Positions 5,684-47,410 of a DNA stretch of 47,506 bases are shown here, one piece after another. A program made the translations under genes and the position numbers. Each line of letters opens with the position of its first letter. Within the stretch, counting starts at the first letter, position 1. Source of the DNA: an uncultured Bacilli bacterium. GTDB lineage: Bacteria > Bacillota_I > Bacilli_A > RF39 > UBA660. The notes below the pieces were generated by a model that saw only the letters and a program-made list of their open reading frames with translations, was not told where the DNA came from and ran no database searches. The stretch is from positions 1 through 47,506 of the forward strand of contig CANRJW010000008.1 in NCBI GenBank assembly GCA_947631035.1. Reading direction: 5' to 3'.

Positions 5684-5711
5684 AAAATTAAGATATGGAG
5701 GAGAAAGAGAA

Positions 5712-7392
5712 ATGAAAAGTTTCAAAAAGAACCTCCCAACCGAGGCAAATAGTCGTCTGGGGGGGGGGTTATTATTTAGATAATAATAGGAAACCAGAGG
5801 ACTTAAAACGATTTAATAAAAATAAGAAGCAAAAAAACATTTTAATAGGAAGCATAATAGCAATAGTTTCTATAATAGGAGGTATAAGTTTATACCGAAG
5901 TTTTGCTATGTATGAAGAAAAACAAACTTTTGATGTATTAAAAGGGACAGTACCTGATTTTAGTACCAAAGATATAAACTTAGCTTTTACCATAGATGGA
6001 AAAACCGACACCAATGCTAAATTTCCAAATAAAGGTGAAGGATATGTAGTAGAAAAAGTAGATTGTGAAGATAATGTAACAGCAGATTGGAATAATGGCA
6101 GTTGGAGTTTAGAAAATGTAAAAAATAATGGAGAAGCCAAAAAAGTAAAATGTACAGTAAAATTTAAAACAATAGATAAAACAAGTGGCTTAAATGGAGC
6201 AGAACCGGTATTAGGAGATGGAATGATACCCGTTATTATAAAAGAAAATGGAAAAGTGTATAAAACAACAGAAGATAATAAAGACTGGTATGACTATGAG
6301 AAACATATATGGGCAAATGCAGTTATCTTAACAGAAAATGCTCCAAGTTATGAGGATAATGCTGAAATATCCGAAACAGATATTGAAAGTTATTTTGTAT
6401 GGATACCCAAGTTTAGTTATCAACTCTTTGATATAGGAAAATATGCAACAGCAATGGGAGTCGAAAGCAAAAATAATATGGTTATAAATATAAGATTTGG
6501 CGTAATAAATACAGAAGATGGAGAAGGAGAATGCAAAACACCAATGTTAGATAATGGAGTGCAAGGAGCGAGTGGAGAAAGTTGGCATTGTAAAGTTGGT
6601 GACTACATGACGCATCCCGCATTCCTAGCTTTTGATACCCCAGGATTTTGGGTTGGTAAGTTTGAAACAAGTTATAATAATGGTATTCAAGTTAAGCCTA
6701 ATGTAATAAGTTGGATTAGGACGGATTTTGGAACAGCATATCCAAAATTACTAGCATATCAACCAGACTTACAAAGTCATTTAGTCAAAAATACGGAATG
6801 GGGAGCAGTTGCTTATTTAACGCAAAGTATTTATGGTAGATGCGACAAGAGTACAAACGATTGTGAGGATGTATCAGTAAATAGCATGGGCACTTATAAC
6901 AATAATTCTTATTATACAGGATATACTGGCAATACGGCTTATGGTGGAAGTAATGAACAATTAGCAAGTACGACTGGAAATTATAGTGGAATCTATGATA
7001 TGAGTGGTGGAGCTTGGGAATATACAGCAGTAATTATTTTGGATGGAAATAATAAAACTCCTATAAGTACAAGCCAATTAACTGCTGATTATTTGAAAAA
7101 TCCTAGATATTATGATATTTATAATTATGGAATAGATTATACTCATTGGGAGAGAAGAATCCTTGGAGATGCTACTAGTGAAATAGGACCGTTTGCATCT
7201 ATATCAGGTTCTGCATTTGTTAGTTCTATAAATAATGCTTATGCACGATTTATATGTTTTTCTTATCCTTATATGGTGCGTGGTGCAGAGTGTGGGGATG
7301 GAGTCCCAGCAAGTCTTTTTTCTTTTTGTACTGCCGCTGGAAATGGAGATTACAATTCATCTTTCCGTATTGTCCTAGCTCCAAAAGTTTAA
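5712..7392 (+). CDS. Phase-variable surface protein with FGE/C-type-lectin-like fold (OFF as sequenced)
   Basis: The ATG at 5712 follows GGAGGAG and encodes MKSFKKNLPTEANSRLGGG, then stops at 5781-5783 in the sequenced 10-G state. Removing one G (or adding two) joins it to the long downstream frame and gives a 559-residue protein. The ON product has a charged cytoplasmic tail, one membrane helix (encoded about 5840-5890, ILIGSIIAIVSIIGGISLY), an extracellular domain and a C-terminal domain like formylglycine-generating-enzyme/C-type-lectin folds (NTEWGAVAYLTQSIYG, GIYDMSGGAWEY, final FRIVL). No sortase motif is seen, so the helix should be the anchor. The core is very similar to the gene at 30795, but the last roughly 60 residues differ strongly. 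Function is unknown; ligand binding at the cell surface is inferred from the fold. Confidence 0.8.
5759..5768 (+). repeat. Poly-G tract (10 G), phase switch of locus 1
   Basis: Ten consecutive G lie within codons 16-19 after the ATG at 5712. With 10 G the reading frame runs into TAA at 5781; with 11 G it meets TAG; with 9 or 12 G it continues through the body. Such a long G run stands out in this AT-rich sequence. Confidence 0.9.
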
Positions 7393-14399: not shown

Positions 14400-16157
14400 A
14401 TGAGTAAAATTAAAGTAATGAATGAATCGCTCGCGAATAAAATCGCGGCAGGGGAAGTGGTGGAAAAAATTTCTTCTGTCGTAAAAGAATTGTGTGAAAA
14501 TAGTATTGATGCCCATGCCAGTACCATTGAAGTTTCTCTAATCGATGGGGGACTTAAAAGTATCCAAGTCGTCGATAATGGAGAAGGAATGGACCGAGGG
14601 GATGCTGAAGCATGCTTCCAAAGACATGCAACGAGTAAGTTAATTCGTGAAGATGATTTGTTTTTTATTGATACTTTAGGGTTTCGAGGTGAAGCCTTAC
14701 CTTCGATAGCCAGTGTCAGTAAAGTGGAACTTAAAACTTGCAGTAATGATATTGGAAGTCGCATTATCATAAAAGGTGGCAAAATAGAGGAAATCTCTGA
14801 TGCAGATGCTAGAAAGGGTACAAGTATCACGGTAAGTGATTTATTTTACAATACACCTGCTAGATTAAAATATTTAAAAACCGAAGCGTCAGAACTTGCG
14901 GGTTGCGTTTCTTTAATCGAACATTTAGCCTTATCTCATGAGAAAATTGCCTTTACTTTAAAAAATAACGATCGCGTGTTAGTAAGTACCAGTGGAAGTG
15001 GCAATTTACACAAATGTATTCATGAAATTTATGGATTAAATGTTTCTTCAAAAATGTTAGAAGTAAGAGCAAGTAATGACGATTTTGATCTTTACGGATA
15101 TGTTTGTAAACCAGAAATTTTAAAATCCAATCGCAATCACTTTATTACTATGATTAACGATCGTGTCATTAAAAATTATGAAATCAATCGAGCCATTAAT
15201 GATGCGTATTACACCTATAAACCCGATATTAAATACCCAATCGTCGTTTTAAAAATCAATACCGATCCTACTTTGATTGATGTCAATATTCACCCCACCA
15301 AACAAGATATGAAAATTTCCAAAATGAATGAACTTTACGAGTTAATCGTGAATACCATTAAAGAGGCTTTGTATAAAAACTTATTGATTCCTGATGCCAT
15401 AAAAAAACCAGAATACAATGAAATAAAGGATCAGTATGTCGAACATTTTGTAAAAGAAAGTGAAACAAAATTCGAAGAATACAATGGTTCCAAAGAGCAA
15501 GGACAAGTGGCTTTAGATTTGAGTTATGAAGAAGAAAAAGAAAGTCCAACTATCCTTAATGAAGAATTAAAAAAATTAGTTTTATATCCGGTTGGGGTGG
15601 CCCTTGGCACTTATATCATTGCACAAAACGAAGAAGGGGTGTATTTAATCGACCAACACGCCGCGCAAGAAAGAGTGAACTACGAGCGTTACTTAAAAGC
15701 CTTAAAAGAAAGTAAACAAGCGAGTACGGGTTTATTACTTCCCATTACTATTGAACTATCCAGTAGCGAATTTCTAATTGTCAAAAACAATCTTGAAGTC
15801 TTAGAAAATTTAGGATTTAAAATCGAAGAATTCGGTTTAAATACCTTTGTCTTTAAAGAACATCCGACTTGGCTTAAAACGGGCTATGAAGAAGAATCCA
15901 TTCGTAAAATCTTAGATATATTAATTTCCAATCAAGGAAAGTTTGACCGCGTAAAATTTAATGAACATATTGCTATTACGTTAGCATGTAAAATGAGTAT
16001 AAAAGCCAATATGCATATTAGTAATGAAGCAGTAGAAGAGTTACTAAATGAACTTACTGCTTGCGATAATCCTTACAATTGCCCACATGGAAGACCAACG
16101 ATTATTAAGTTTTCTATCTATGACTTAGAGCGTATGTTTAAAAGGGTTATGAATTAA
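14400..16157 (+). CDS. mutL: DNA mismatch repair protein MutL
   Basis: A 585-residue MutL. The N-terminal GHKL ATPase shows NKIAAGEVVEKISSVVKEL, DNGEGM and GFRGEALPSIASVS. The C-terminal half carries the endonuclease motif DQHAAQERVNYE and the CPHGRPT motif, so this is a nicking-type MutL as in Gram-positives lacking MutH. mutS is not in this window. MutL status matters here because mismatch-repair activity affects slippage rates at mono-nucleotide tracts such as the three poly-G switches. Confidence 0.96.
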   Translation: MSKIKVMNESLANKIAAGEVVEKISSVVKELCENSIDAHASTIEVSLIDGGLKSIQVVDNGEGMDRGDAEACFQRHATSKLIREDDLFFIDTLGFRGEALPSIASVSKVELKTCSNDIGSRIIIKGGKIEEISDADARKGTSITVSDLFYNTPARLKYLKTEASELAGCVSLIEHLALSHEKIAFTLKNNDRVLVSTSGSGNLHKCIHEIYGLNVSSKMLEVRASNDDFDLYGYVCKPEILKSNRNHFITMINDRVIKNYEINRAINDAYYTYKPDIKYPIVVLKINTDPTLIDVNIHPTKQDMKISKMNELYELIVNTIKEALYKNLLIPDAIKKPEYNEIKDQYVEHFVKESETKFEEYNGSKEQGQVALDLSYEEEKESPTILNEELKKLVLYPVGVALGTYIIAQNEEGVYLIDQHAAQERVNYERYLKALKESKQASTGLLLPITIELSSSEFLIVKNNLEVLENLGFKIEEFGLNTFVFKEHPTWLKTGYEEESIRKILDILISNQGKFDRVKFNEHIAITLACKMSIKANMHISNEAVEELLNELTACDNPYNCPHGRPTIIKFSIYDLERMFKRVMN

Positions 16158-29734: not shown

Positions 29735-29781
29735 AGGAAGTATTTTTAGATACTTCTTTTATAAGAACGGAGGTGAAAAAA

Positions 29782-30630
29782 TTGTTTACTCAAGAAGAAC
29801 CAAAAACAATCAACTTAAAAAATGATTGGATGTTTAAAGCTTTCATGACTAAACCACAAAGTAGAAATATGGTGGCAGGTTTGATTAGTGAAATCACAGG
29901 TATAGATAGAAATCTTTTGTATCATGCCACTTATATAGGTGGTGAAGAAATAGCTAAAAGACAAGAAATACAAAAGAAACAATCCACCGATATGACCATT
30001 AAGATTACTGACCACATGCAAATAATTGTGGAAATGAATCAAGCATATCAAAAACATGTTTTTGAGAAAAGCAGTTTGTATGCCATGAGTCGTATTGTGG
30101 AAACTACCACATCCAAGAAAGACTATACTTCTATTATACTGATTAATTTTGATAATTTTAATCAGTATGAAACAAGTGACCCTATCTTGATTTTTCAAAT
30201 ACAAGATAAAAAGGGACACATAGAAGTAAACAATTATATTTCTTATCATGTAATACTTGAAAATTGTTCTGATAAAAACTATAATGTAGGTAAAGAAATA
30301 AAGAAGTTTGCTAATTTCATAAAAGAAAAAAGAACAATCAAGCAATTAGAGGAAAAGTATGAGGGGGATGAGGAATATATGTCAGTAATAAGAACAGTAG
30401 AAGAGTTAAGTAAAGATCCAGAGTTTGCGGGGTATTATGATATTGAAGAGAAGCATCGTCAACAACTAGAGGATGCCAAAGAAACTGGAATGGACGAAGG
30501 AAAAGCGGAAGCAAACCTTTCTACTGCAAAGAAGATGTTGGAAGATAACATGGATATCGACATAATTTCAAAATATACCGGCTTATCTATTGAACAAGTT
30601 GAGAAGTTAAAGAAAGAACAAACAAAATAG
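29782..30630 (+). CDS. PD-(D/E)XK nuclease family transposase (Rpn-like)
   Basis: About 282 residues, matching the PD-(D/E)XK transposase-like family (PDDEXK_2, Rpn-related). Features are the N-terminal LKNDWMFKAFMTKPQSRNMV, the nuclease core STDMTIKITDHMQIIVEMNQAY (D and E-x-N/Q positions), and YAMSRIVE. The C-terminal part has a Glu/Lys helix and SKYTGLSIEQVEKLKKE. Family members are spread by transfer and are linked to recombination-promoting endonuclease activity, though many are orphan. The TTG at 29782 is eight bases after GGAGG; a GTG at 29773 overlaps that site. It lies between repeats of the surface-protein loci. Confidence 0.85.
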   Translation: MFTQEEPKTINLKNDWMFKAFMTKPQSRNMVAGLISEITGIDRNLLYHATYIGGEEIAKRQEIQKKQSTDMTIKITDHMQIIVEMNQAYQKHVFEKSSLYAMSRIVETTTSKKDYTSIILINFDNFNQYETSDPILIFQIQDKKGHIEVNNYISYHVILENCSDKNYNVGKEIKKFANFIKEKRTIKQLEEKYEGDEEYMSVIRTVEELSKDPEFAGYYDIEEKHRQQLEDAKETGMDEGKAEANLSTAKKMLEDNMDIDIISKYTGLSIEQVEKLKKEQTK

Positions 30631-30768: not shown

Positions 30769-30794
30769 TAGATTAAGATATGGAGGAGAAACAA

Positions 30795-32487
30795 ATGAAA
30801 GAATTCGAAAGAAACCTCCCAACCGAGCGAAATAGTCGTCTGGGGGGGGGGTTATTATTTAGATAATAAGAAACCAGAGGACTTAAAACGATTTAATAAA
30901 CATAAAAAGAAAAAAGAAATACTATTTGGATTCATAATACTATTAATAGGAGTCATAGGAGGTATAAGTCTATACCGAAGTTTTGCTATGTATGAAGAAA
31001 GAAAAACATTTGATGTCTTAAAAGGAACTGTACCAGATTTTTCTGGTGCAGATATAACCTTAGCTTTTACAGTAGATAAAGAAAAAGTAAGTGGAAGTTT
31101 TCCGAATCGAAATAGTGGTTATCTTGTACAAGAAGTACAATGCGAAAATGAAGTAACAGCCGAATGGAATAATTATGAATGGAATTTAGAGCATATAAAA
31201 AATCCAAAAAACGCAACTAAAATAAAATGTAATATAGATTTTACAAAATTATATACTGAAGATATATTACATGGAGCCTATCCTGTATTCGATGAAAATG
31301 AAGAATTAGTTCCAGTAGAAATAGAAGAGAATGGAGTTGTAACGAAAGCCAATTTGTATAACGAATGGTATAGTTATGCAGAAAAAAAATGGGCCAATGC
31401 AGTCATATTAAATGCAACAGGAAAAGCTCAAACTATTGAACCAGGTAATCAAATCAAAGAAGAATGGATAGAAAGTTATTTTGTGTGGATACCAAAATAT
31501 AGTTATAAGTTGTTTGATCAAAATTTAGGAAACTATACAGAAGTAACTCAAATAGAAAGCAAAGATAATTTAGCAATCGAGATAAAATTTGGACTAGACA
31601 ATACGACAGATAATGGAACAATAGATGGGGAACCAACTTGTAAAACGCCGATGTTAGATAATAAAGTCCAAGGTGCATCAGGAAGCGATGGGAATTGTGC
31701 TTATGGGAATTATATGACACACTCAGCATTTTTAGCCTTTGATACATCTGGAATATGGGTAGGCAAATTTGAAACAAGCAACAATAATGGGATTCAAGTA
31801 AAGCCGAATGTAATAAGTTGGAGAAGCATTACAGTAGGGAATTCATTTAAAAATTCAAGAAGTTATCAACCAGACTTACAAAGTCACTTAATGAAAAATA
31901 CGGAATGGGGAGCGGTAGCTTATTTAACCCAAAGTATTTATGGAAGATGTGATAAAGAAACAGGTACATGTAAAGAAGTAGAAATAAATAGCAATAGCTC
32001 TTATTATACAGGATACACAGGGAATACAGCTTATGGAGGATTAGATAATGCTCAATCAGCAAGTACAACCGGAAATTATAGTGGAATCTACGATATGAGT
32101 GGTGGAGCACAGGAACAAATGGCCAGTGTTATGTTAGATATTCAAAATAAAAATCCATTATATTATTCTTCGAATGGATGGTCAGTTACTGATTTCGATG
32201 ATAGAAGATATTATGATGTATATTCTTATTATGCAAATCAAACGCATTGGGATAGAAGAATACTAGGGGATGCGACTGGGGAGATAGGCCCATTTACGAC
32301 ATCATCAAGTGATTATATAGGTTCGATGTGGAGTGATTATGCTAATTTTATTAACCCAACGGCCTCTTGGTTTCATCGTGGTGCTCATTACTTCTCTCAA
32401 ATGAATGCAGGTGTGTTCAGTTATACAGGTGGTAGTGATGGTGTAGGTAGTGGGAATGGTTTCCGTATTGTCCTAGCAGTTAGTTGA
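30795..32487 (+). CDS. Phase-variable surface protein with FGE/C-type-lectin-like fold, paralogue 2 (OFF as sequenced)
   Basis: The ATG at 30795 encodes MKEFERNLPTERNSRLGGG and then stops in the 10-G state, exactly as at locus 1. With one G fewer it gives a 563-residue protein: cytoplasmic tail, one membrane helix (ILFGFIILLIGVIGGISLY), extracellular domain, then a C-terminal FGE/C-type-lectin-like domain (NTEWGAVAYLTQSIYG, GIYDMSGGA, GFRIVL). The middle of the protein is closely similar to that of locus 1, but the N-terminal extracellular part and the last 60 residues differ, including the key GGAQEQ versus GGAWEY stretch. No sortase or lipobox signal is seen. It is followed directly by a pilin-like gene. 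Confidence 0.8.
30842..30851 (+). repeat. Poly-G tract (10 G), phase switch of locus 2
   Basis: Ten G after CGTCT, at the same codon position as in locus 1. The sequenced count gives TAA after LGGGLLFR; nine or twelve G restores the long frame. Confidence 0.9.
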
Positions 32488-36173: not shown

Positions 36174-36198
36174 AGAAGTATAGTAGGAGGATAAAGAA

Positions 36199-37903
36199 AT
36201 GAATAGTTTCAAAAAGAACCTCCCAACCAGCGAAAATAGCCGTCTGGGGGGGGGGTTATTGTTTAGATAATAATAAAAAGGAACCCAGACGACGAATAAA
36301 ATATATAGTGTTCGGAATTATAGCAACAATATTAATAGCAATAGGGACAAGTTATGCTTTATGGACAACAACAGAACATCAAACAGGGGTAAATATTGTA
36401 CAAAGCACTTGCTTAAAATTAACTTTAACAAATGAAAAAAATGAAATAGGATTAGATAATGCTTTTCCACTAACAGATGAACAAGGAAGAAATTTAGAAC
36501 CTTATACATTTACAATAACAAATGTTTGCGAAACCCCCATCGATTATACGCTTGCTCTTGAAATGCTAAACGAAACTACATTAAATAGTGAATTTGTAAA
36601 ATATCAATTAACAGAAGATAGTGATAAAACAATTTCTTATTTAAATACTTTAGATAATGAACCAACAGAAGAAAGCACTCAAATAGACGGTGCTACAGAA
36701 GGAAGAGTATTACTAGAAGATACAATTGAAAAAAATAAATCTAAAATTTTTAATTTAAGATTATGGATAGACGAAGGCGTTACCTTAGCTGATAGTATAA
36801 CTGGTCAAACATTTAAAAGTAAAGTAGCCATCCAAGGAGTTATAGCCAAACCAGGAATGATAAGAACGATTGCCGAGGATGATATAAATGGCATGTGGCA
36901 ATATAAAGATAAAATAACGAAACTTATTATTGAGGATAAAATAAAAAAACCAGATGGTTCTGAAGTATTAGGACCTTTTGATGAGAGTAGATATAAAGAT
37001 GAAAGTGTCATAAGTTATTTAGTAAAAAATGGTGAAGAAGATGCTTATACCGCTTATTTACAAGGTGATGGTGGGTTTACCTTAAATTATAATAGCGTAA
37101 ATTTATTTTATAAGTTTAACAAAGTAACCTCAATAGAAGGAATAGAAAACTTAAATACTAGTAAAACTCGAAATATGGAGAGTATGTTTTCCTATATGCA
37201 AGCCTTAGTTCAATTAGATTTAAGAGACAAATTTGATACGAGAAATGTTACGGATATGAAGAGTATGTTTTATAGAACAGAATCTTTAACTTCATTAGAT
37301 TTAGGAGACAAATTTGATACTAGTCAAGTAACCAATATGAGTTGGATGTTTTACTATATGTCTACTTTAGAAGCATTAGATTTAAAAGATAAATTTGATA
37401 CGAGTAAAGTAACCGATATGAGTAAAATGTTTGCTTTTACGAAAGCAACTCAATTAGATTTAAGTAAATGTAATTTTGATACAAGTAATGTGACAAATAT
37501 GAGTGGTATGTTTTATATGTCCAAATTAACCTCCTTAAATTTGGGAGATAAATTTAATACAAGTAAAGTAACGAATATGAGTGAGATGTTTTCCGATATG
37601 AATGAATTAACTCAATTAAATTTAGGAGATAAATTTAATACGAGTCAAGTAACCAATATGGAGAGAATGTTTTACTATATGCGAGCCTTAGTTCAATTAG
37701 ATTTAAAAGACAAGTTTGATACAAGTAATGTTACGAATATGAAGAGAATGTTTTTTAATTCAAATCAATTAAAAACAATAGAGTATGGAAATAAATTTAT
37801 TCATAATGAAGAAGCAGATATTAGAGACATGTTTTATAGCTGTCCAGCACCAAAGCCTACAAAAGAAACACATCCATCATGGGATGGAGTTGGATTTGAT
37901 TAA
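36199..37903 (+). CDS. Phase-variable BspA-like (DUF285) surface protein (OFF as sequenced)
   Basis: The ATG at 36199 encodes MNSFKKNLPTSENSRLGGG and stops in the 10-G state; nine G gives a 567-residue protein. The ON form has a membrane segment (FGIIATILIAIGTSYALW), a beta-rich domain resembling SipW-linked TasA-type proteins (about 45 to 300), and then eight or so DUF285 repeats. Each repeat is about 24 residues and reads like LDLGDKFDTSQVTNMSWMF. The repeats should form an extracellular solenoid; in other bacteria BspA-type repeats bind host or bacterial surfaces. The start of the body is paralogous to the gene at 45239, but the leader matches loci 1 and 2 instead. Confidence 0.82.
36246..36255 (+). 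repeat. Poly-G tract (10 G), phase switch of locus 3
   Basis: Ten G after CGTCT, at the same codon position as in loci 1 and 2, and again one base out of frame with the long body. Confidence 0.9.
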
Positions 37904-38080: not shown

Positions 38081-40147
38081 ATGAAAAAGAATGTTGTTGT
38101 TCGACAACAAGATTTAAAAGACTGCGGAGCATGTTCATTACTCTCTATTATTAAATACTATGGCGGATATATTCCTCTGGAAAAAGTAAGAATGGATACG
38201 CAAACGTCTATGGAGGGGACAACGGCTTACCATCTTATTAAAACAGCCAGGAATTACGGATTTGATGCTTATGGTATGAAATTGGAAAGTTTGAAGGAAT
38301 TAAAAGATGCCATTTTGCCGGTGATTGCCCATGTTGAAATTAACCATTACACCCATTTTCTCGTAATTTACAAACTCAATCCTATTGATATCGAAGTCAT
38401 GGATCCGGCAAAAGGAAAAATAAAGATGTCCAAAGAAGATTTTGAAGCCATTTGGACAGGGAATATCCTTTTCTTTTATCCCAAACGATTGATTCCCAAA
38501 ATAGTGAAAGAAAACCATCTTCTTACTATGTTAAAAACCTTTACAAAACAAGAATTTCATTCAATTCTAAAAATTCTATTTTTAACGGCGTTTTTAACTA
38601 TTATTACAATCTTAACTGGTTTTTATTTCAAAGTAGGAATGAACTTTGTCACCGATAGCGAAGATAAAAACGTTCTTTTAACTCTAGTATTTGTCTTTTT
38701 TTGCTTATACATTTTAAAGTACTTATTTTTGTATTTGCGGAATCATTTTAAGATGTATTTGAATAAAAATTTAGACGGAGAACTCTATTACAACTTCTTA
38801 CAACATTTCTTTTTACTTCCTCATTATTTTATGAAAGATAGAACAACAGGTGAAATTATGGTTCGTATGAAAGAACTGGAAAATATGAAAGAGGTATTTT
38901 CGGAAATTTTGGTCACAATACTGTTAGATTCTATTCTTTCCATTAGTGTTGGAATTATTCTATGGCACATTCACCAAAAACTCTTTTTCCTTCTTTGTTT
39001 TTTTGTTTTGGGTTATATGGTTTTTGGAATAATTTCAGGAAAAGTGATGTATCGCCATGCTTTAAAAACAAGTGAATCGGAGGTAGAGTTTCAATCGACA
39101 ATGATTGAAAATGTCGATTCGATTCTTTCTCTTAAAAATCTTAATGTTCTTCCTTTGTTCTTACAAAAACTAGAAATGCGCTTGACGAAATTCTTAAATC
39201 AATCTTATGATTTGAATAAAAAAGTTATAACAACAACGACTTTTTCTAGTTTATTAGAAGAGCTCTTTGAATTCTTTCTTATTTCTTACGGATTGTATGA
39301 AATTCTACAAAATCGTTGGAACTTGATTAATTTGATTACATTTGAAAGTTTAATTTCTTTCTTCTTCACTCCTTTTAAATCGATTATCAATTTATTACCA
39401 AGTTACAATTATGTTAAAGTGAATATTGAAAAAATGAATGATTTTTATACCGTTGAAGAAGAAAGAGAAGAAATCGGTTTAAATGAGTTTAAAAATGGTA
39501 CTATCAAAATTGAACATTTGACTTTTTCTTACAATGATTTTATAAAACTTTTTGACGATTTTTCTTTAGAGATTCCCGAAAATTCTTGTGTTCTTTTTAA
39601 AGGAAATAGTGGCTGTGGGAAAAGTACGATTTGTCAAATCCTTTGTCGTTTAGTAGAAGTAAAAAATAATGCCATTAAAATAGGGGAAGTGAGCGTAAAC
39701 GACTATAGTTTAAAGACAATACGGAAAAATATTACCTATGTGGGTCAAAAAGAAAATCTATTGCAAGATACCATTAAGAACAATATTTTATTAAATCGAA
39801 TGATTGCGGAGGAAAAATATTTAGAGATTTTAAAAATTTGTGAAATAGAAACGATTGTTGCTAAGAAACCCCTTCGTTATGAAACTTTTTTAACGAAAGA
39901 TTCCACAAATATTTCAGGAGGAGAAAAACAAAGAATTATTTTAGCAAGAGCGTTACTGAATGATTTTCAAATTCTCATTTTAGATGAAGCACTTAGTGAA
40001 GTAAATAATGAATTAGAAATACGCATTATTAAAAATTTAAAGGAATATTTTAAAAACAAAACCATTATTTATGTCAGTCATAAAAAGCAAGACGAATATT
40101 TTGATCATGTTTATGATTTTGGAAAACTATTATGCAAGAATATATAA
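38081..40147 (+). CDS. Bacteriocin exporter: ABC transporter with C39 peptidase domain
   Basis: A 688-residue protein. Residues 1-130 form a C39 peptidase with the catalytic set Cys15 (in QQDLKDCGACSL), His92 (HYTHFLVI) and Asp108 (VMDPA). It should cut leader peptides after a double glycine. A membrane domain with about six helices (165-450) and an ATPase domain follow: Walker A GNSGCGKS near 510, signature SGGEKQR near 613, Walker B ILILDEAL near 632. It exports and matures the two small peptides encoded just downstream. The stop overlaps the next gene by 16 bases. Length is typical for the family. Confidence 0.93.
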   Translation: MKKNVVVRQQDLKDCGACSLLSIIKYYGGYIPLEKVRMDTQTSMEGTTAYHLIKTARNYGFDAYGMKLESLKELKDAILPVIAHVEINHYTHFLVIYKLNPIDIEVMDPAKGKIKMSKEDFEAIWTGNILFFYPKRLIPKIVKENHLLTMLKTFTKQEFHSILKILFLTAFLTIITILTGFYFKVGMNFVTDSEDKNVLLTLVFVFFCLYILKYLFLYLRNHFKMYLNKNLDGELYYNFLQHFFLLPHYFMKDRTTGEIMVRMKELENMKEVFSEILVTILLDSILSISVGIILWHIHQKLFFLLCFFVLGYMVFGIISGKVMYRHALKTSESEVEFQSTMIENVDSILSLKNLNVLPLFLQKLEMRLTKFLNQSYDLNKKVITTTTFSSLLEELFEFFLISYGLYEILQNRWNLINLITFESLISFFFTPFKSIINLLPSYNYVKVNIEKMNDFYTVEEEREEIGLNEFKNGTIKIEHLTFSYNDFIKLFDDFSLEIPENSCVLFKGNSGCGKSTICQILCRLVEVKNNAIKIGEVSVNDYSLKTIRKNITYVGQKENLLQDTIKNNILLNRMIAEEKYLEILKICEIETIVAKKPLRYETFLTKDSTNISGGEKQRIILARALLNDFQILILDEALSEVNNELEIRIIKNLKEYFKNKTIIYVSHKKQDEYFDHVYDFGKLLCKNI

Positions 40148-45238: not shown

Positions 45239-47410
45239 ATGAAAAAATTTATAGAAGAAAAAAAGACAATTCTAATTATTTTAGGAATTTTACTGGTACT
45301 AGCAATAATAGGCACTAGTTATGCTTGGTGGACAACATCAGCCTTTCAAACAGGAGAAAATGCTATTATCAGTAATTGTTTAAAATTGCATATAGTAGAT
45401 GAAACACATGCAATTCATTTAAAAAATGCATTTCCGATATCAGATGAAGAAGGTGAAAGGTTAGAACCATACACATTTACTGTTGAAAACGAATGTGATA
45501 TTCCAGCAGATTATTCTATTGCTTTAGAAATGTTAAATGCTACGGAGTTAAATAGTAATTACTTAAAATATGAGTTAAACGACGTTGTAGATGAGTATGT
45601 TATCGCAATTGAAGATTCTTATACCGAGGAATATCCTACATTAGAAGAATGTCAAGATGAATTACAATGGTATGTTGATGATGATTATTATACGGTAACC
45701 AAATCGTGCGAACTTGAAAGCATTGATGATGAGAATAAATATATACTTGATTATAGTTCTTTCGATTATTTTTTTTATCAAACAAATGAAGAATGCCAAA
45801 ATGGAATAATAGAACTTCTTGAAGAAGGGGCACCATCGTCAATTCAGTGCGAAGTACAACCTGTTGAAAAAGAGGAAATGGCACACAATTTAGGTCAAGA
45901 AAGAGAAGAAGAAAAAGTTTTATTAACTGATGCTAAAGAAGGAAGATTGCTTCGCCAAGATACAGTAGCAGCAAAGGCTAGTAAAAGTTACAATTTAAGA
46001 TTATGGATGGATTATGATACTCCCTTAACGGAAGAGGCTATGAATAAAATATTTCAAAGTAAAATTGTTTTACAAGCAGTAGTGGCAGAATCTGGTATGT
46101 TAAAAAAAATAAGATATGATGAAAACTATATTCAACCTGATTCAACAGGAATGTGGGAATATTACCTGGACATTGATAAAATAATAATAGAGGATACGAT
46201 TTATAAACCAGAAGGTATAGATGTATTAGGCCCATTTGATGAGAGTAGTGCCCAAGATGGTAGCATTGTAAGTTATTTAGTACCTGATGAATCGGGGGAC
46301 GGAACTTATGTTGCCCATTTACAGGGAAATGATGGAATTAAATTAAATTCGGATAGTTCTTATTTATTTGCTGATTTTAGAAATGTAAAAGCAATAGAAG
46401 GTATTGAATATTTAGATACAAGTGAAGCAACAAATATGAGAGGTATGTTTATGAATATGGCTTCTTTAACTCAATTAAATCTAGAAAAACAATTTGATAC
46501 AAGCAATGTAGTTAATATGAGTTTTATGTTTGGAGATTCAAACGGATATCTTTCTGTTCTAAGTAATTTGGATTTAAGTAAATGTAATTTTGATACAAGC
46601 AATGTAACGGATATGAATAATATGTTTTCTGGTTTACAATTAGATACATTGAATTTAGGAGATAAATTTAATACAAGTCAAGTAACAAATATGGCTGGTA
46701 TGTTTAGATCTACACTCATATTTGACCAAAATATAGATTTAGGAGAGTTATTTGATACTAGTAGTGTTACAAATATGACTGGGATGTTTCAAAGTTTCGG
46801 TGGTAATAAAGAACTGAACTTGGGGAATAAATTTAACACAAGTAATGTAAGAAATATGGATAGTATGTTTAAAAATTCGTTAGTTCGTACTTTAAATTTG
46901 GGAGAACAATTTGATACAAGTAATGTAACTAATATGAGTAATATGTTTTCCGGCATGCGCAACTTAACTCAATTAAGTTTAGGTGATAAATTTAATACAA
47001 GTAAGGTAAGAAATATGTCTAGTATGTTTAACACTGTGAGTTCTTTGGAAAATTTAGATTTAAGAGATAAATTTGACACAAGCCAAGTCACTGATATGAG
47101 TTGGATGTTTAACAATATGTCTTCTTTAATTCAGTTAGATCTAGGAAATCAATTCGATACAAGTAAAGTAACGGATATGAGTTATATGTTTGCGTGGATG
47201 ATTGACTTATATACTTTGAATTTAGGAGATAATTTTAATACAAGCAATGTAGTTAATATGAGTTTTATGTTTTATTATTCATCCAGATTAAAAACAATAA
47301 ATTATGGTGATAATTTTGTTCGCAAGGATGGTTCAGATATAACAAATATGTTCCAAAGTTGTCCAGCAGAGAAACCAGAACATTCCTCATGGGCTGGAGC
47401 TTTTGATTAA
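45239..47410 (+). CDS. Large BspA-like (DUF285) surface protein, no phase switch
   Basis: A 723-residue protein: membrane segment (about residues 12-30, ILIILGILLVLAIIGTSYAWW), a TasA-like beta-rich domain, then about twelve DUF285 repeats of some 24 residues (pattern LNLGDKFNTSKVRNMSSMF). The start of the body (TSYAWWTTSAFQTGENAI, then NAFPISDEEGERLEPYTF) is paralogous to locus 3, as is the end. A stretch between about 45590 and 45890 has no counterpart in locus 3 and contains two similar Cys units. There is no poly-G leader; the gene starts directly at MKKFIEEKK behind GAGAGGA. Expression is probably controlled by the palindromic operator instead. Confidence 0.88.
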   Translation: MKKFIEEKKTILIILGILLVLAIIGTSYAWWTTSAFQTGENAIISNCLKLHIVDETHAIHLKNAFPISDEEGERLEPYTFTVENECDIPADYSIALEMLNATELNSNYLKYELNDVVDEYVIAIEDSYTEEYPTLEECQDELQWYVDDDYYTVTKSCELESIDDENKYILDYSSFDYFFYQTNEECQNGIIELLEEGAPSSIQCEVQPVEKEEMAHNLGQEREEEKVLLTDAKEGRLLRQDTVAAKASKSYNLRLWMDYDTPLTEEAMNKIFQSKIVLQAVVAESGMLKKIRYDENYIQPDSTGMWEYYLDIDKIIIEDTIYKPEGIDVLGPFDESSAQDGSIVSYLVPDESGDGTYVAHLQGNDGIKLNSDSSYLFADFRNVKAIEGIEYLDTSEATNMRGMFMNMASLTQLNLEKQFDTSNVVNMSFMFGDSNGYLSVLSNLDLSKCNFDTSNVTDMNNMFSGLQLDTLNLGDKFNTSQVTNMAGMFRSTLIFDQNIDLGELFDTSSVTNMTGMFQSFGGNKELNLGNKFNTSNVRNMDSMFKNSLVRTLNLGEQFDTSNVTNMSNMFSGMRNLTQLSLGDKFNTSKVRNMSSMFNTVSSLENLDLRDKFDTSQVTDMSWMFNNMSSLIQLDLGNQFDTSKVTDMSYMFAWMIDLYTLNLGDNFNTSNVVNMSFMFYYSSRLKTINYGDNFVRKDGSDITNMFQSCPAEKPEHSSWAGAFD

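Follow-up and report, generated by a model that had tools for sequence, protein, structure and literature searches.

A repeated poly-G leader cassette as a candidate default-off switch of surface-protein genes in an uncultured gut Bacilli lineage

Three poly-G loci and the proteins behind them

The window, by which we mean the whole stretch of DNA analysed (47.5 kb, GC 30%), carries on its forward strand three genes of the same design, in which a short leader reading frame preceded by a Shine-Dalgarno sequence runs into a tract of ten G, beyond which a long frame encodes a membrane-anchored protein. In copy 1, the Shine-Dalgarno GGAGG, which covaries with the leader CCTCC across 147 copies, occupies positions 5697..5701, and it is followed by the leader ORF in its G10, off state (5712..5783; MKSFKKNLPTEANSRLGGGLLFR and then a stop), a CCTCCC complementary to both the Shine-Dalgarno and the G-run (5732..5737), the G10 tract (5759..5768), and the downstream frame (5770..7392). 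The same five elements are found in copy 2 at 30782..30786, 30795..30866, 30815..30820, 30842..30851 and 30853..32487, and in copy 3 at 36186..36190, 36199..36270, 36219..36224, 36246..36255 and 36257..37903, respectively. These tracts are the window's only runs of G or C of at least eight, and the chance expectation for runs of at least ten G is about 0.014 per whole genome.

The frame relations are identical in the three copies. In each, the ATG (5712, 30795, and 36199) has GGAGG upstream and is followed 45 nt later by a CTG codon, the G of which is the first of the tract; with ten G, the frame closes at a TAA eight codons on from where this CTG begins (5781-5783, 30864-30866, and 36268-36270). 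With nine or twelve G, the leader is in frame with downstream frames of 540, 544, and 548 codons in copies 1, 2, and 3, the nine-G version being read as CTG GGG GGG GGT and then on into the downstream frame. The initial annotation had described these G10 positions, the out-of-frame ORF and stop at ten G, and the join at nine or twelve; the sequence agrees, and the frame arithmetic is correct at all three loci. None of the three downstream frames has an ATG, GTG, or TTG start ahead of its membrane segment, the earliest starts (5908, 30988, and 36308) lying within or past it; therefore, the full protein is not obtainable from an independent start, and downstream re-initiation was ruled out on these grounds.

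The encoded proteins combine a lysine-rich N-terminal tail with a single hydrophobic segment and a large outer portion, and this anchor suggests a surface location. Behind the anchor, copy 1 has a variable ectodomain with a weak FGE/C-type-lectin-like C-terminus, copy 2 a variable ectodomain ending in GFRIVLA, and copy 3 a PARCEL/DUF285 repeat ectodomain (PF03382, 5.2e-46; TIGR02167, 8.5e-50). Among 40 copies in the genome, domain matches were to FGE-sulfatase in six (weak), to the ALK/LTK glycine-rich domain in five (best 5.7e-43), and to DUF285 in one. Most of the long copies share the C-terminal pattern W..RGG....G..G.F.F......FRIVLA, in which fixed positions are separated by very variable ones, an arrangement that we take to resemble the C-type-lectin-like fold of retroelement-diversified proteins. 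A diversity-generating retroelement acting on these hypervariable lectin-like C-termini was considered and rejected: the reverse transcriptase profile PF00078 had no match in the organism's genome assembly (92.7% complete), while positive controls did match. Structural searches with the ectodomain gave an unusable AlphaFold model (pLDDT 35), nothing with its profile against the PDB, and a sole phmmer match, 5vf4_A, at E=0.028. A second PARCEL-repeat protein, located at 45239-47410 (+) (TIGR02167, 1.4e-40), has no G-tract at its start and no switch, and an Rpn-family recombination-promoting nuclease/putative transposase lies just upstream of copy 2 (29773-30630, +).

Directly after copy 3, the window contains a C39-type peptide cleavage/export ABC transporter (38081-40147, +; TIGR01193, 1.5e-107, below cut-off). 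This neighbour, together with a leader that ends in GGG, would fit an explanation in which the G10 product is itself the point, namely a peptide of 23-24 residues with a GG motif that the transporter exports. We consider this barely credible, since any poly-G run encodes glycine, the off-frame tail is variable and only 3-5 residues long, and the spacing between the leader motif and GGG varies between species, so that no classic double-glycine leader is kept; a role of the leader in export through a double-glycine signal was accordingly ruled out.

One cassette in many loci and species

The genome to which the window belongs (1.43 Mb in 82 contigs) contains the same cassette about 50 times. The string GTCTG8 has 47 matches, against 0 for its reversed control, and the leader motif CCTCCCAACC-N5-AAATNGNCG, searched with three mismatches allowed, has 49 perfect matches and one additional three-mismatch match that is apparently unrelated. 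Consequently, the three loci originally pointed out are all real but were an undercount, and the suggestion of a family-wide switch was right and understated, as 13 more species of the genus also carry the cassette. Contig breaks are frequent at or near it (C16, C33, C37, C44, C47, C48, C58, C60, C65, C68, and C78), so that the true number in this genome is probably higher. In one broken cassette, at an end of contig C65, the leader is followed by G6 and, past it, by unrelated sequence rich in A and T. The one candidate for a length difference at a single locus, formed by the end of C37 (G10) and the start of C48 (G9), was ruled out because the downstream sequences of the two differ, so that no change of length at one locus was seen with one assembly per species.

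We could read 46 distinct tracts in this genome, which comprise 38 of G10, four of G9, three of G11, and one of G8; as the in-frame length is divisible by three for all copies, four of them are on. It is important to consider that all the tract lengths reported here are the consensus of a single assembly, with one assembly per species. In the leaders of this genome, two codons (LPTxxN) are variable and most other positions are fixed, and leader variants, post-tract variants and protein classes occur in many free combinations, as would be expected if cassettes were exchanged between loci; gene conversion may homogenise the tracts among them. The cassette pattern was found on no viral contig when phage carriage was considered.

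When the leader pattern of this genome was searched in 99 relatives, matches appeared in two, both of the same genus. The shorter motif CTCCCAAC-N6-30-G6 was found in 13 other genomes of the genus (G001, G003-G007, G010, G015, and G017-G021) and its reversed control in none. In the 14 species, including the organism under study, 141 copies could be scored, with lengths of ten (105), nine (15), eight (10), eleven (6), six (3), and seven (2). Only 19 of these (13.5%) are in frame, where random frames would give 33% (binomial p=6e-8, an indication given that the copies are related). To be in frame, 130 of the 141 copies require a tract length divisible by three, and the other 11 need another frame; in G007 the required length differs between copies and the tracts are still mostly ten, with one copy on at ten. 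In addition, G003 has a second, unrelated gene family with a leader of the form ..LPILGTIVVLGGG, whose tract lies within the hydrophobic segment. A set of 13 further G003 copies includes 11 off at G10 (one of which encodes the first protein type), one on at G9, and one off at G8.

A sample, not a survey, of other genera of the same family revealed different leaders ending in G8-10, such as ..QYWGGG with a type IV pilin-like protein (G196) and MKKINNCSNGGG with a TasA-like N-terminus (G277). In the sampled genomes, G10 is off and G9 is on wherever a long frame follows; the tracts of G175 and G292 have no such frame behind them. A different arrangement was observed in another member of the family (G042, L256-L261), where many TGCAACT-G8-10-TGCAATACAATAG-like elements stand upstream of a possible ribosome site and outside any leader ORF; their tract could sit in a promoter spacer and switch transcription.

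The genes that are off as assembled are not pseudogenes. Of 97 off copies with enough sequence, 92 stay open for at least 200 codons beyond the tract, all the G8 and G11 copies among them, and dN/dS over the 55 codons just past the tract is 0.137 (23 paralogues; mean dN 0.067, mean dS 0.488). Together, these two observations argue that translation of the downstream frame, and selection on it, take place for at least some of the time. The phase switch originally proposed thus finds support in paralogous tracts of 8, 9, 10, and 11 G, some of them in frame, in off ORFs that are intact and under purifying selection, and in the lack of an alternative start; in the comparison of tract lengths over related genomes, on and off lengths are both present among the copies (G8-G11 among paralogues).

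Because Illumina sequencing has difficulty with G runs (PMC9187656) and the named relatives come from metagenome assemblies, a sequencing or assembly artefact, with true tracts of G9 and all genes on, had to be weighed. We find it highly improbable: the same well-sampled assemblies resolve each of the lengths 8, 9, 10, and 11, independent projects (rabbit Lapin bins, SRR15604582, and SRR15510228) agree on the same mode, and in G007 the mode is still ten although the in-frame length varies between copies.

The leader as a possible RNA element

Throughout the genus, the synonymous positions of the motif CTCCCAAC are conserved, although most relatives were found by CTCCCAAC itself; in the genome under study, the search of the leader tolerated mismatches, yet it returned no mismatched copies of the cassette. 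The CTC codon of the leader represents 3.6% of the leucine codons in the genes of the window, and it is preceded mostly by a C-ending codon (AAC or ATC, which make up 15% and 13% of their synonyms). The GGAGG Shine-Dalgarno is paired with a CCTCC leader in 132 of 132 cases, while all six TCTCC leaders, from two species, have GGAGA (Fisher 7e-9, with relatedness ignored). In G020, the base change before CTC is synonymous (AAC to AAT, ATC to ATT). This covariation suggests that the ribosome site lies in a GGAGR:YCUCC helix, and with it a hairpin that may control initiation.

In free folding of copies 1 and 3, CCUCCC pairs with the G-run instead (z of -3.6 and -2.7), so that the two pairings compete: the leader RNA would hide the Shine-Dalgarno by pairing it with CCUCC, and the G-run could compete for that same segment. 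The motif is dispensable for the switch, since most G003 leaders do not have it. A more elaborate proposal, which we put forward tentatively and regard as possible but rather doubtful, is a two-layer switch in which the Shine-Dalgarno and the G-run compete for the leader CCUCC(C), so that the tract would act on initiation as well as on frame. In this proposal, gene conversion would move the cassette among about 50 loci and selection would keep the off length, giving a default-silent surface repertoire to this uncultured gut Bacilli lineage.

Probable slipped-strand switching and the excess of ten

The explanation that we favour, with a probability of roughly three in four (0.77), is slipped-strand phase variation, in which these genes would be default-off contingency loci serving a surface-protein repertoire. 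It accounts for the mixed tract lengths, the shared frame design, the intact off genes, and the precedents in other bacteria. Each gene would then be a contingency locus whose short leader, with its strong ribosome site, runs into the poly-G tract, and a tract of 9 (or 6, or 12) G would put the surface protein in frame. A tract of ten G, which is the usual length, would lead the ribosome to a stop codon no more than five codons away, and the surface protein would not be produced. Slipped-strand mispairing during replication would add or remove one G, and the loss of a single G from ten would turn the gene on, so that the switching itself would take place in the DNA by slippage. With some 50 loci that share one cassette and differ in their ectodomains (lectin-like, glycine-rich, and PARCEL repeats), each cell would display few proteins, and different lineages different sets; the benefit may be evasion of host immunity, phage, or competitors, or varied adhesion. 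The cell would then hold many surface proteins, most of them silent and apparently switched on one by one via single-base slips.

Unlike the genes described here, the Opa genes of Neisseria have five-base repeats, number up to 11, and encode one protein type. They are similar in being surface-protein paralogues, each with its own frame-setting repeat in the leader region (PMC11287997). The Campylobacter jejuni phasome has 5' intragenic tracts of G7-G13 in which one G more or less alters the frame, and 9G/12G are treated as on in its model (PMC8224891); it differs in its 12-29 genes per strain and modelled equilibrium lengths of 8-10, compared with about 50 genes here, all built on a single leader cassette and most of them off, at ten G. 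In the gut commensal Bifidobacterium breve, two ORFs of the sortase-dependent pilus, a surface structure, are joined through a G-tract inside the gene, with enrichment of the on-length in mice (PMC9187656), but there are two loci per genome in this member of the Actinobacteria, with neither a repertoire nor a described leader RNA motif. Candidatus Mycoplasma girerdii, with a small Mycoplasmatales genome, has a BspA-like surface-protein family and repeat-length variants in reads (PMC5476646), although its repeats are mostly dinucleotides, eight BspA genes are affected, and no poly-G leader is shared. Gardnerella has many G/C tracts near surface-protein genes, with demonstrated length variation (PMC11287997), but they lie mostly upstream of ORFs (median of 20 G/C tracts per genome), and no common cassette is reported. 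Poly-G switching is therefore already known (Campylobacter, Bifidobacterium, and Gardnerella), and what is new here is the scale, the uniform cassette and the default-off bias. A limited literature search found no paper joining RF39 with phase variation, which is weak evidence.

If slipped-strand phase variation is correct, an uncultured lineage of gut Bacilli with a small genome (1.4 Mb) uses about 50 genes for a switchable surface repertoire, and these loci, with one cassette throughout, outnumber the 12-29 tracts cited for Campylobacter strains. The switching rate, default state, and selection of poly-G tracts would be measurable in parallel on about 50 near-identical tracts per genome from gut metagenome reads. 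Ordinary gene calling must then mis-annotate nearly all such genes, losing the leaders and shifting the starts into the membrane segment.

The off state at G10 was recognised from the beginning, but the near-uniform off length of the copies was passed over, and it needs an explanation of its own. A model with the insertion and deletion rates of C. jejuni (PMC8224891, table 2) predicts 47% G9 and 26% G10 over lengths 8-13, with a mode of nine, whereas G10 makes up 77% of the observed tracts of at least eight, a sharper distribution. The excess implies either that slippage in this organism balances at ten or that the on state is costly and G10 is selected. Of the six copies in which ten would be on, two have that length, whereas among the other 135 copies it is found in 103 (p=0.04); this hints weakly at selection for the off length.

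This sharpness also bears on the main rival, and a serious one, which is programmed recoding: G10 would be productive, RNA polymerase slippage or +1 ribosomal frameshifting would let every copy make full-length protein in a fixed proportion, and length ten would be under selection. A mode of ten that holds for practically all species and for two protein families, the same requirement of -1 nt in 130 of 141 copies, and purifying selection on off ORFs would all be compatible with it, and both the CCUCCC/G-run helix and the Shine-Dalgarno-like G-run could stimulate shifting. Nevertheless, about a quarter of the tracts are not ten, G8 and G11 copies that need other shifts have intact ORFs, copies within G007, G005, G001, and G015 need shifts that differ from each other, and programmed transcriptional slippage has been described mainly on A/T runs (PMC3711429). 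On balance, we judge recoding, whether in transcription or translation, to be unlikely.

Returning to slipped-strand phase variation, MutS and MutL are present across most of the genus, and slippage should thus be restrained. MutL is encoded in the window (14400-16157, +). MutS was not found in the 92.7% complete assembly of this genome and is present in 20 of 22 genomes of the genus, so that it has either been lost or lies within the missing 7%; its loss, if real, would raise slippage. Finally, two tracts are interrupted, GGGAGGGGGGG in G015 and GAGGGGGGGG in G005; both are out of frame as assembled, and they are expected to slip less.
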